The notes under the pieces: generated by a model
Told to the model about the DNA's origin: nothing
What the model saw: the letters and a program-made list of their open reading frames with translations, nothing else
Databases searched by the model: none
Program-made: the position numbers and the translations under genes
Shown here: positions 14,711-17,317 of the stretch, piece by piece
Numbering within the stretch: position 1 is the first letter of the stretch
How the letters are laid out: the number at the start of each line of letters is the position of its first letter
NCBI RefSeq assembly: GCF_000013405.1
Contig: NC_007759.1
Location: 3,101,001 to 3,165,000 of the forward strand
Direction of reading: 5' to 3'
DNA from: Syntrophus aciditrophicus SB
Lineage (GTDB): Bacteria; Desulfobacterota; Syntrophia; Syntrophales; Syntrophaceae
Length of the DNA stretch: 64,000 nt

Positions 14711-14941
14711 ATGTCAACCGAAGCTCCTGAATACGAGGTAGTGCTGTTCCATTCCGTCAGTTACGCCTTGAAAGCGGAAAAAATCCTGAAAACAAAGGGG
14801 ATATCCTATAAATTGATCCCTGTGCCCCGCCATATCAGCTCCGACTGCGGCTTCTGCGTTCGCTTTCCTTCCCATCTCCACCAGGAGGTCGCCGAGGCCC
14901 TGAAGGACAGCGTGGACTATGTGGTCATTCGTCCCCTCTGA
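14711..14941 (+). CDS. DUF3343 family protein (putative Se/S carrier-like)
   Basis: This 76-aa cytoplasmic protein matches the DUF3343 pattern: a short beta-alpha start (YEVVLFHSVSYALKAEKILK) leading to the cysteine motif SSDCGFCVRF near residue 48. Members occur in anaerobes, often near selenium- or sulfur-transfer genes, and are proposed carriers of activated Se/S. No such gene is adjacent here. The Shine-Dalgarno is weak. The terminator at 15079-15117 could end its transcript as well as belong to the next gene's leader. Confidence 0.75.
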   Translation: MSTEAPEYEVVLFHSVSYALKAEKILKTKGISYKLIPVPRHISSDCGFCVRFPSHLHQEVAEALKDSVDYVVIRPL

Positions 14942-14999: not shown

Positions 15000-15028
15000 T
15001 TGCATTGGAGTTTTCATCATGGTATGAG
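15000..15028 (+). promoter_or_regulatory. Candidate promoter of the cold-shock leader
   Basis: TTGCAT at 15000-15005 and TATGAG at 15023-15028 are separated by exactly 17 bases, just after an A-rich tract that could act as an UP element. Transcription would start near 15035, giving a leader of about 185 bases before the cold-shock ATG, or an RNA of about 80 bases if it ends at the terminator at 15117. Confidence 0.5.
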
Positions 15029-15078
15029 AGCTCATGTTTGTGCAGTACCCGTTTGTGACATAAAAATACAGAATAGAG

Positions 15079-15117
15079 AACCGCACAATCCTCATAAAGA
15101 GGGCGTGCGGTTTTTTT
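15079..15117 (+). terminator. Intrinsic terminator inside the cold-shock leader
   Basis: AACCGCAC at 15079-15086 pairs with GTGCGGTT at 15105-15112. An inner CCTC/GAGG helix is also present, and T residues run from 15111 to 15117. It lies between a candidate promoter and the cold-shock ORF, so it is either an attenuator of that gene, the end of a small RNA of about 80 bases, or the terminator of the upstream DUF3343 gene. Confidence 0.8.
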
Positions 15118-15182
15118 GTTCTGAAAAAGACGGGCTGCCGGTTCGCTTGATTCGTGGATCATCCGGACCTATTAAAGAAATG

Positions 15183-15212
15183 GGTTTCCAGAAAGGAAAC
15201 CTCCAAAAGGAG
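15183..15212 (+). promoter_or_regulatory. Mutually exclusive hairpins at the cold-shock ribosome-binding site
   Basis: Hairpin 1 is GGTTTCC (15183-15189), loop AGAAA, GGAAACC (15195-15201). Hairpin 2 is CTCC (15201-15204), loop AAAA, GGAG (15209-15212), and buries the Shine-Dalgarno AAGGAG. They share base 15201 and abut, so they partly compete. This arrangement could regulate translation with temperature. It is an inference from base pairing only. Confidence 0.45.
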
Positions 15213-15221
15213 TCGTACAAG

Positions 15222-15422
15222 ATGTCAGAAGGAACAGTCAAATGGTTCAACGCGTCCAAGGGATTTGGTTTTATCGCACAGGACAATGGAAATGATGTAT
15301 TCGTTCATTTTTCCGCCATTAAGATGGAGGGGTACAAAGCCCTCGAAGAGGGTGCCAGAGTCCGGTTTGATGTTGTCAAGGGGAACAAAGGACCCGCCGC
15401 GGACAACGTTGAACTGCTGTAA
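15222..15422 (+). CDS. Cold-shock domain protein (CspA family)
   Basis: This 66-aa single cold-shock domain starts [18 protein letters not shown] and carries the RNA-binding motifs KGFGFI (RNP1) and VFVHF (RNP2). It is a nucleic-acid chaperone that melts RNA structure in the cytoplasm. AAGGAG at 15207-15212 lies 9 bases upstream of the ATG. The structured leader and a following DEAD-box RNA helicase gene suggest a joint cold or RNA-structure response, although a terminator separates the two genes. Confidence 0.96.
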
Positions 15423-15449
15423 TACCCGATTGAATTCAAAAGGATAACA

Positions 15450-15487
15450 AGACGGCAAGGAGGCATACACCTTGCCGTCTTTTCTTC
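15450..15487 (+). terminator. Intrinsic terminator after the cold-shock gene
   Basis: A perfect 12-bp stem (AAGACGGCAAGG at 15450-15461 with 15471-15482) has a 9-base loop and is followed by a T-rich tail. It lies 28 bases past the cold-shock stop and separates that gene from the helicase gene. Confidence 0.92.
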
Positions 15488-15598
15488 TGTCGCACAGAGC
15501 AGCAGTTTTCTGCCCTGTCGTCTGAAGTTGGAAAAAACTTATTAAAAAACTGAGGAGCGATCCGGCAACCCGGCTGTAGTCCCCAGAGAAAAGAAGAT

Positions 15599-17317
15599 AT
15601 GAAAACATTTGCCGAATTTGAGATTAACACGGATATTATGAAAGGACTTGACGGACTCGGCTTTTCCGTTATGACTCCCGTACAGGAGAAGATTATTCCT
15701 ATTGTTCTGAACCGTCAGACCGACCTTGTTGGTCTCGCACAAACCGGAACGGGGAAAACGGCGGCATTTGGCATCCCCCTGATCCAATTGACTGATACCC
15801 GGCTGAAGCGGACTCAGGCTCTGGTTCTCTGCCCGACTCGGGAGCTTTGCGTTCAGGTGGCCGGCGATCTCAACCTGATGGGTCGATATGTACAGAAATT
15901 AAAGATTGTGCCGGTTTACGGCGGGGCGAGCATCGTCAGCCAGACAGAGGAACTGCGGAAAGGGGCTCAGGTTGTCGTGGCGACCCCGGGGCGTCTGCAT
16001 GATCTGATCCGTCGGGGAGCGGTCGATCTCTCCGGCGTCTCCTGGGTCGTTCTCGATGAAGCAGACGAAATGCTGCAGATGGGTTTCCAGGACGAACTGA
16101 ACGCCATTCTAGCCGTAACCCCGGATTCCAAAAACACCCTGCTTTTTTCAGCAACCATGCCGCGGGAAGTAGCGGCAATCGCTGCCAACTACATGAAGGA
16201 TCCGCTGGAAATCATCGTTGGGCGACGCAATGCCGGAGCGGAAAACGTTGATCACATCTATTATGTCGTTTCAGCCAGGCACCGCTATCAGGCTTTGAGG
16301 CGAATTGCGGATATGAACCCGGAACTCTATGCCATCATTTTCTGCCGGACCCGTCTGGAAACCAGAGAGATCGTCGATAAGTTGATCGAGGATGGCTACA
16401 GCGCCGACGCCCTTCACGGAGATCTCTCCCAGAGCCAGAGAGACCACGTGATGCATAAATTCCGGAGCAGGAACATCCGGATGCTCGTGGCCACCGATGT
16501 CGCGGCCCGGGGCCTGGATGTCAATGATCTGACCCACGTGATCAATTACAGCCTCCCGGAGGAATCTTCCGGCTACACGCACCGGAGCGGCCGTACGGGG
16601 CGTGCGGGAAAGAAGGGAATTTCCATAGCCTTAATCGAAACTCGAGAAAAGCATAAGATTCGAGCAATCGAACGATGCCTTAAAAAGAATTTTGAAGAAG
16701 GCCGTATTCCTTCAGGCCATGAGATCTGTAAACGGCGCCTGCTCAGCCACATGGAAGCCGTTAAAAAGACGGAGATCGATGCGGAACATATTGATCCGTT
16801 TCTGCCCGCTATCTCGAAAACACTGGAAAGCCTGGATCGGGAAGAGCTGATCAAACGGTTCGTATCGATGGAATTCAATCGGTTCCTGGCGTCTTACCGG
16901 AATGCCCCGGACCTGAACACCTTTGAAAAAACCCCTCCGAAAAAAAAGACGCGGGAAGCTGCTGCCGGAAAGCCTTATCGGCTGGCTTCCCGGAAGAAAT
17001 TTACCCCTTTGTTCATTAATGCCGGGAAAAAGGATGGAATCAGTCCGAAACGTCTGATGCGCGATCTTTCGGACGCCGCAGGCATGCCGGACGTCCGGAT
17101 CGGCAGAATTGAAGTCAACAACACCACCTCGCTTCTGGAAGCGGACAGCCGCTTTGCGCCGAAAATATTGCAGGCATTGAAGTCCCTGACGATCAACGGG
17201 CGATATGTTGCCGTCGAGATCGACCGGAAAACCGCCATCCGAAACCGGCCCGAAAATCGGCGTTATGATTCGAGCACGGCGAAGGATAGAAGAAAAGGTC
17301 AGAGCAGACCAGCCTAA
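15599..17317 (+). CDS. DEAD-box ATP-dependent RNA helicase (DeaD/CsdA/DbpA-like)
   Basis: This 572-aa helicase has a Q motif followed by AQTGTGKT (residues 47-54), DEAD at about 152-155, SAT, and the C-terminal RecA motifs ARGLDV and HRSGRTGRAGKKG. Residues about 478-555 form a DbpA/CsdA-type RNA-binding domain (LFINAGKKDGISPKRLMRDL, then VRIGRIEVNNTTSLLEAD), which in the family targets ribosomal or other structured RNA. It probably acts in ribosome assembly or RNA decay at low temperature, matching the upstream cold-shock gene. The stop codon overlaps the pheA stop on the opposite strand by bases 17315-17316. Confidence 0.95.
   Translation: MKTFAEFEINTDIMKGLDGLGFSVMTPVQEKIIPIVLNRQTDLVGLAQTGTGKTAAFGIPLIQLTDTRLKRTQALVLCPTRELCVQVAGDLNLMGRYVQKLKIVPVYGGASIVSQTEELRKGAQVVVATPGRLHDLIRRGAVDLSGVSWVVLDEADEMLQMGFQDELNAILAVTPDSKNTLLFSATMPREVAAIAANYMKDPLEIIVGRRNAGAENVDHIYYVVSARHRYQALRRIADMNPELYAIIFCRTRLETREIVDKLIEDGYSADALHGDLSQSQRDHVMHKFRSRNIRMLVATDVAARGLDVNDLTHVINYSLPEESSGYTHRSGRTGRAGKKGISIALIETREKHKIRAIERCLKKNFEEGRIPSGHEICKRRLLSHMEAVKKTEIDAEHIDPFLPAISKTLESLDREELIKRFVSMEFNRFLASYRNAPDLNTFEKTPPKKKTREAAAGKPYRLASRKKFTPLFINAGKKDGISPKRLMRDLSDAAGMPDVRIGRIEVNNTTSLLEADSRFAPKILQALKSLTINGRYVAVEIDRKTAIRNRPENRRYDSSTAKDRRKGQSRPA

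Follow-up and report, generated by a model that had tools for sequence, protein, structure and literature searches.

A conserved leader RNA with a predicted internal terminator and a long-range helix precedes cold-shock genes of Desulfobacterota

INTRODUCTION

Why should a cold-shock gene be separated from its own predicted promoter by an intrinsic terminator? The question is raised by a csp gene in the window, the stretch of 64,000 nucleotides of Syntrophus aciditrophicus SB that was analyzed (contig NC_007759.1, positions 3,101,001 to 3,165,000, forward strand), which is part of a single-contig genome of 3,179,300 bases. The end of the preceding gene and the start of csp are separated by 280 bases, which contain a promoter-like pair, a terminator, hairpins, and a Shine-Dalgarno sequence. 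In classical attenuators and riboswitch leaders, an intrinsic terminator between promoter and gene gives either a short aborted RNA or a read-through mRNA. In Escherichia coli, a conserved motif, the cold box, is present in the csp 5' leader.

RESULTS

Layout of the csp leader

The following features were assigned in the window, with the evidence for each given last.

14711-14941, co-directional with csp: Se/S-carrier-like gene (PF11823; DUF3343 in the preliminary description); Pfam
15000-15028, + strand: predicted sigma-70-type promoter, TTGCAT (15000-15005), 17 nt, TATGAG (15023-15028); sequence, TTGC[ATC] conservation
15037-15224, + strand: whole conserved leader RNA, up to the csp start codon; covariance model R2, fold z -6.7
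15042-15052, + strand: 5' arm of the long-range helix H0, GCAG .. CCCGT; minimum-energy fold, covariation, swap tests
15053-15079, + strand: A-rich linker between H0 and the terminator, approximately TTGTAGTTANCAAATTACNGAAAA in relatives; alignment consensus
15080-15117, + strand: intrinsic terminator with stem arms ACCGCAC (15080-15086) and GTGCGGT (15105-15111), an inner CCTC/GAGG stem, and T7 (15111-15117); sequence, -21.3 kcal/mol, covariation alignment
15130-15138, + strand: distal arm of H0, ACGGGCTGC, made solely on read-through; fold, covariation, swap tests
15140-15169, + strand: hairpin H3, after H0, with sequence and length varying by species; fold, covariation
15183-15201, + strand: hairpin H4, GGTTTCC-AGAAA-GGAAACC, directly before the Shine-Dalgarno sequence; sequence, covariation
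15207-15212, + strand: Shine-Dalgarno sequence AAGGAG; sequence
15222-15422, + strand: csp, 66-aa cold-shock domain protein; Pfam CSD PF00313, E 8.5e-29

The leader at about 15035-15221 folded with a z-score of -6.7 relative to shuffles, and its terminated portion alone with -4.9. Transcription is expected to start near 15034-15036. The motif TTGC[ATC] was found at the matching stretch in 53 of 59 leaders, the window included, compared with 7.7% in mononucleotide shuffles; L133, with too short an upstream sequence, was left out of this count. The TTGC motif alone exceeded shuffles, and the automatic best-promoter score was no better than theirs (7.76 versus 7.87). A generic promoter and terminator scan of the window listed neither the TTGCAT/TATGAG promoter nor the terminator at 15080-15117, the latter probably because only loops of 3-8 were allowed.

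The recurring parts of the leader follow one another in the order TTGC[ATC] promoter motif, 5' arm starting with GCAG, linker with an A-rich conserved stretch, terminator, distal arm ending with CTGC, hairpins H3 and H4, and AAAGGAG. The predicted promoter motif, terminator, H0, H3, and H4 travel together with csp across the leaders. The preliminary description placed before csp a leader that has a promoter of its own and a terminator inside it, use of which would release a short RNA, and this is supported by sequence prediction and conservation. The observation holds for the most part and extends further than described; an alternative hairpin burying the Shine-Dalgarno sequence is lacking in the nearest relatives.

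In three csp paralogs (L197, L198, and L229), the TTGC promoter motif lies directly before the last hairpin and the Shine-Dalgarno sequence, with neither H0 nor terminator after it, as a minimal version of the leader; in L197, the promoter overlaps a terminator-like hit at -85. Downstream of the window csp (15440-17317), there is a terminator-like hairpin of its own near 15480 and a gene for a DEAD-box helicase of 572 aa that carries a DbpA RNA-binding domain, and thus two cold-shock-type genes adjoin.

Distribution of the leader family

A DNA search of the genus revealed the same leader before csp paralogs. The covariance model R1, built from 8 seed sequences including the window and restricted to the first 84 nt with no coding sequence, matched 32 places in 23 of the 155 genomes of the order, 8 of them its own seed (the class-level genome set comprises the same 155 genomes). 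Just upstream of csp lie 21 of the 24 non-seed places, the others being L045 (a weak match), L050, and L017 (G002:C13:6583), and in 28 of the 30 places retrieved csp was within about 200 nt of the match start. In the phylum sample, R1 matched 18 of 395 genomes, and csp follows at 19 of the 20 new loci. When named genomes were scanned by pattern, 71 loci were obtained, of which 30 lie upstream of csp, with the labels Syntrophus, Syntrophaceae, Syntrophales, Syntrophobacteraceae, Desulfobulbaceae, Desulfobulbales, Desulfobacterales, Desulfurivibrio, "Deltaproteobacteria", "Proteobacteria", and "bacterium", all Desulfobacterota-type or unspecific. Among the other 41 loci, L084, L119, and L121 look like leaders without csp, and the remaining ones are read as chance terminators.

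The full-leader covariance model R2 (172 positions; 21 seed sequences, the window not among them) aligned over its full length with all 60 csp leaders supplied, 21 of which are its seed; these 60 come from the phylum of the window, with exact repeats removed. The window matched R2 with 91.9 bits (E 2.1e-18, positions 1-172 of 172) and precedes csp, and it therefore belongs to this family, termed class A. In the phylum sample, R2 matched 40 places in 30 of 395 genomes; 18 of the 20 loci checked precede csp, and several weak ones match the 3' part only. L229, L241, and L245 all precede csp. For the tests on 60 leaders described below, 8 of the 68 rows of alignment A5 were dropped, namely L072, L119, L045, L017, L050, and the second hits of L071, L076, and L095.

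Neither the window nor 16 loci of the genus gave a gathering-level match to Rfam 15. The leader alone gave four matches at E up to 10, among which RF01766, the family of the E. coli cspA leader, was absent; the best was suhB on the opposite strand (19.4 bits, cutoff 41, E 0.064). Leader and coding region together scored 53.4 bits against RF01766, below the gathering cutoff of 78, and are not counted as a member. No report of these csp leaders was found in searches of the open-access PMC literature, and by these two checks class A is a new Desulfobacterota csp leader RNA family.

Several class A leaders were observed apart from csp. Behind the leader at about 1501-1760 of L072 (the same leader occurs in L084) come a second terminator-like hairpin and a gene for a DEAD-box RNA helicase resembling the one downstream of the window csp, as though a deletion had taken out a csp gene lying between leader and helicase. 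The leader in L050, without csp, appears rearranged. The class A-like leader of L119 (842-1059) is separated by about 215 nt from a downstream gene that was named by eye as an ABC-F-like ATPase and is not csp. Linker and terminator recur in degenerate form, with no csp following, in L017 (1501-1584); the same genome has four class A leaders that are linked to csp.

Terminators upstream of csp genes

A csp gene is present in 106 of the 108 genomes of the order that are at least 90% complete. Among the matches listed, 37 of 60 sampled csp genes of the order carried a sense terminator at -200 to -20, compared with 14 of 111 other genes with intergenic space, 5 of 60 in antisense, and 29 of 300 shuffles. 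For this sample, alternate entries were taken from the first 120 of the matches listed, which are ranked by similarity to the protein of the window; some of the sampled genes are close relatives. The csp starts were placed by motif and are approximate; those of L155, L163, and L184, at least, look misplaced, so that their terminators may be missed. R2 gave class A matches in 17 of the 60 surveyed genes (E up to 2.1e-8).

These rates bear on the reading that the terminator belongs to the transcript of the upstream gene, with the csp promoter elsewhere and the leader without regulatory role. Terminators after a gene are common, and the co-directional PF11823 gene does end at 14941, upstream of the terminator; the preliminary description held that the terminator could equally end the DUF3343 transcript. 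However, TTGC[ATC] stands just before the leader in the great majority of cases (53/59), the terminator is conserved along with its T-run, its spacing from csp, and the structures on either side, and control genes with intergenic space have a terminator at that place in just 14 of 111 cases. Because promoter motif, terminator, and csp are conserved together in the phylum, the terminator probably does not simply end the upstream gene, and we regard that reading as very improbable.

A long-range helix completed after read-through

A further element, absent from the preliminary description, is the helix H0, in which the 5' end of the leader pairs with a segment downstream of the terminator. In the minimum-energy fold of the window, most of 15042-15052 pairs with 15128-15138, GCAG (15042-15045) with CTGC (15135-15138) and CCCGT (15048-15052) with ACGGG (15130-15134). 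The arms in other leaders are TGTTTGT/ACAAACA, GTTTTTG/CAAAAAC, or CTGATTGT/ACAATTAG. From the position of the arms, H0 is predicted to form only after read-through of the terminator.

In alignment A7, which was fitted to the structure and leans to the model, and whose shuffles ignore relatedness, 25 of 33 pairs showed changes on both sides, compared with 14.2 in shuffles, as did 128 cells compared with 34.5, and 90.4% of cells were paired versus 27-44% for slid versions. The terminator, helix 4 of A7, was paired in 96.7% of cells. With the plain, unrefined MAFFT alignment A3, RNAalifold yielded the terminator and H4 but neither H0 nor H3.

Because A7 leans to the model, H0 arms were exchanged, with no alignment used, between leaders less than 70% identical. 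Own arms paired better than swapped ones in 49 of 60 leaders (mean -13.6 versus -11.1 kcal/mol, p 9e-8), in 31 of 39 leaders outside the H0 definition set (p 7e-5), in 9 of 10 representatives (p 0.03), and in 50 of 60 leaders after removal of the conserved GCAG/CTGC core, compared with 29 of 60 for a linker-distal control pairing. These p values are optimistic, as the sequences are related; the leaders form a single cluster at 60% identity and 10 groups at 70% identity. Own arms were no better than swaps in 11 of the 60, and L024 is without most of the distal arm. The preliminary description had named the lack of a transcript start near 15035 and of conserved pairing in relatives as evidence against the leader; as to the pairing, the compensatory changes and arm swaps across related csp leaders show that it is conserved.

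By equilibrium folding, the terminator itself exceeded a pairing probability of 0.8 in 51 of 60 leaders at 37°C and in 52 of 60 at 10°C, and it is predicted to form alike at 10-50°C. The predicted promoter upstream and the intrinsic terminator between it and the gene are conserved together, as would be expected of an attenuator. A conserved antiterminator competing with the terminator was not found by swap tests of the 60 leaders.

Other pairings of the 5' end were rejected. For an antiterminator formed by GTGCAG and CCGCAC, own pairs with 7-nt arms were better than swaps in 45 of 60 leaders (p 0.005), with a gain of just 0.15 kcal/mol; with the loop included, own pairs were better in 21 of 60, and several leaders with GCGCAG or ATATAG would pair poorly or not at all. 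The resemblance of GTGCAGT to the terminator arm GTGCGGT had made this antiterminator attractive by eye. In a local 5' hairpin GTAC..TTTG/CAAA..GTAC, own pairs were on average worse than swaps (better in 21 of 60), and pairing of the 5' end with the Shine-Dalgarno and start region, suggested by the window fold, was better than swaps in 23 of 60.

With H0 open until read-through, the 5' arm of the terminated RNA has no partner in cis. The released RNA of about 80 nt might then be a functional trans-acting small RNA, its free 5' arm complementary to the distal arms of csp mRNAs and able to regulate csp paralogs, with csp itself expressed from read-through. Several copies per genome occur (five places in G002 and four in G445, one in each without csp), and leaders without csp exist (L072, L119, L050, and L017), as such an RNA would allow. 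Nevertheless, the linkage to csp is tight at the non-seed places of the order (21/24) and at the new loci of the phylum (19/20), L072 looks like a deletion of csp before the helicase, L050 looks rearranged, and the advantage of own cis pairing over swapped arms is explained by a function in cis. A trans-acting role is therefore considered unlikely.

Hairpins before the start codon and temperature

Both downstream hairpins are conserved. H3 is helix 6 of A7, with 6 of 6 pairs changed on both sides and 86.8% of cells paired, and H4 is helix 7, with 6 of 6 pairs changed on both sides and 98.0% of cells paired. The preliminary description had placed two partly exclusive hairpins at 15183-15212, one of them burying the Shine-Dalgarno sequence, and proposed that a read-through leader with these competing hairpins could sense temperature. 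The GGTTTCC/GGAAACC hairpin stands as H4. The CTCC/GGAG hairpin (15201-15212), which would bury the Shine-Dalgarno sequence, is not conserved, its CTCC being absent from the two closest leaders, L006 and L047. In equilibrium folding, the mean accessibility of the Shine-Dalgarno sequence over the 60 leaders was 0.68 at 10°C and 0.79 at 50°C; in the window, it was predicted to be 0.43 to 0.53, about half open and lower than the mean. With the burying hairpin not conserved and folding nearly flat over 10-50°C, temperature sensing by this competition is not upheld; no thermoswitch is predicted over the 60 leaders, and the folding model does not support a self-sufficient one.

An RNA thermosensor that acts on translation like that of E. 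coli cspA, in which temperature-dependent refolding hides or frees the Shine-Dalgarno sequence and the terminator is secondary, would fit a strongly structured leader (z -6.7) before csp, the score of 53.4 bits against RF01766 with the coding region (below the cutoff of 78), and the half-open Shine-Dalgarno sequence predicted in the window. It is set against the loss of any RF01766 match once the coding region is left out, the high and nearly flat mean accessibility from 10 to 50°C in the 60 leaders, and the absence of the burying hairpin in the nearest relatives, and we consider it distinctly unlikely, somewhat more so than the trans-acting RNA.

A second leader family and a third type

The terminators found in the survey of 60 csp genes, among the matches listed, clustered at -91 to -115 (13 genes) and at -58 to -70 (22 genes). 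The cluster at -58 to -70 consists mainly of a second leader family, class B, with the sequence parts AAGTTGGAT..GACA, TTTTGAAGTGCAAAGG, a GCCGCC/GGCGGT terminator, TGTC..ATCCGACTT, and AAAGGAGG. In the genome of the window, two class A leaders and one class B leader precede csp genes. The H0 arms of class B likewise enclose the terminator, with 84.9% of cells paired versus 24.8-44.9% for slid versions. Changes on both sides were present in 21 cells, compared with 8.1 in shuffles, and in 7 pairs, compared with 3.8, a count reached by 12 of 500 shuffles; the count of further pair types was not above shuffles (151/500). Own arms were better than swaps in 21 of 26 class B leaders (p 5e-4).

The class B alignment, A6, omits L192 and L163 and also the leaders L150, L152, L160, L165, L168, L171, and L180, which have no terminator; L166, likewise without terminator, was retained. 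All of these terminator-less leaders, L166 included, keep H0 by eye, and L166 was also in the swap test. Because some class B leaders keep H0 without a terminator, H0 probably has a role of its own.

The class B model matched 18 places in 10 of 297 genomes of the phylum. Of these places, 17 precede csp; at the remaining one, the match is partial and lies before a gene for an RRM protein. The best global identity between class A and class B is 60%, and the class A model weakly matches some class B leaders (best 34.6 bits, E 1.8e-6, L189). By sequence, the two classes are distinct, with shared descent possible and convergence of the common layout not proven.

In L249 (1501-1650), a class B-like linker and terminator stand before an RRM RNA-binding-like gene (MNKKLYVGNLSSE.., by eye) and not before csp. 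A third type of csp leader was noticed in L004, L014, L018, and L021, with a CCACC/GGTGG terminator and a GTTTAACTC / GAGTTGA pair recognized by eye; L173 and L201 have a similar CCACC/GGTGG terminator and perhaps belong to it.

DISCUSSION

The leader is probably a transcription attenuator of csp. Relatives throughout the phylum share the leader-internal terminator, and csp is therefore probably switched by how often this terminator is ignored. RNA polymerase would start near 15035 and make about 80 nt, whereupon the terminator at 15080-15117 would fold; going by the anatomy, most complexes would stop there by default and release a short leader RNA of about 80-85 nt. Where termination fails, the distal segment would be made and would pair with the 5' end as H0. 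The leader closed in this way would be compact, carrying the terminator hairpin at the tip and two more hairpins and leaving the Shine-Dalgarno sequence mostly open, and the read-through csp mRNA would be translatable. With its 3' arm located beyond the terminator, H0 cannot determine whether termination occurs and is more likely to stabilize or mark the read-through mRNA at its 5' end, for example by 5'-end protection.

In terminator placement, short RNA, and read-through mRNA, this anatomy is shared with classical terminator/antiterminator attenuators. It differs from them in having no conserved antiterminator and instead a conserved partner segment downstream, which pairs only after read-through. 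With the E. coli cspA leader, RF01766, it shares a long structured 5' leader of a cold-shock gene; in contrast, the window leader has an internal intrinsic terminator and a long-range helix, is unmatched by that family when taken alone, and has no predicted Shine-Dalgarno switch.

Given that neither a thermoswitch nor a partner opening the terminator is supported, read-through, if regulated at all, must be set by kinetics or by a factor outside the RNA. Our best guess for the gate is that the conserved, unpaired linker is acted on by a Csp protein or some other RNA chaperone, and that cold takes effect through the supply of Csp; the A-rich linker at 15053-15079 is the candidate regulator site. 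Conserved motifs in csp 5' leaders are found also in E. coli, as the cold box, and in B. subtilis, as cold-shock boxes. The linker shares with the E. coli cold box at most the stretch GTACAGA, in a subclade, which was treated as coincidence. In B. subtilis, the cold-shock boxes are reported for cspB and cspC (PMC8307031).

Csp proteins change terminator efficiency in both E. coli (CspD; CspA/C/E) and B. subtilis (CspB/CspD), according to two reports (PMC9765468, PMC8307031). Overproduction of CspD in E. coli is reported to have led to more read-through at terminators (PMC9765468), and loss of CspB/CspD in B. subtilis led to more read-through at some terminators and less in the pyr operon, with the authors concluding that Csp proteins reduce read-through (PMC8307031). 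The terminators affected are not described in the relevant passages as lying within csp leaders, and self-regulation in the present leaders is a proposal. Since the published systems point in opposite directions, the direction of any effect on read-through here is not predictable.

More broadly, and with considerable doubt, the two sequence-distinct families may share one circuit, a terminator inside a helix completed only after polymerase passage, which would act as a one-way read-through latch; Csps would adjust their own level by either melting the terminator or favouring it, and the circuit would be wide in the phylum and occasionally placed before other RNA-handling genes (DEAD-box helicase, ABC-F ATPase, and RRM protein).

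Among terminator-controlled leaders, to which kind these RNAs otherwise belong, the enclosing helix in two leader classes is the unusual feature. The E. coli and B. subtilis reports disagree as to whether Csp proteins promote or block termination (PMC9765468, PMC8307031). A conserved terminator before csp itself would make Csp-dependent termination a testable feedback loop, and the two RNA families, with no gathering-level Rfam 15 match in the loci scanned, may serve as read-outs of Csp-dependent termination.
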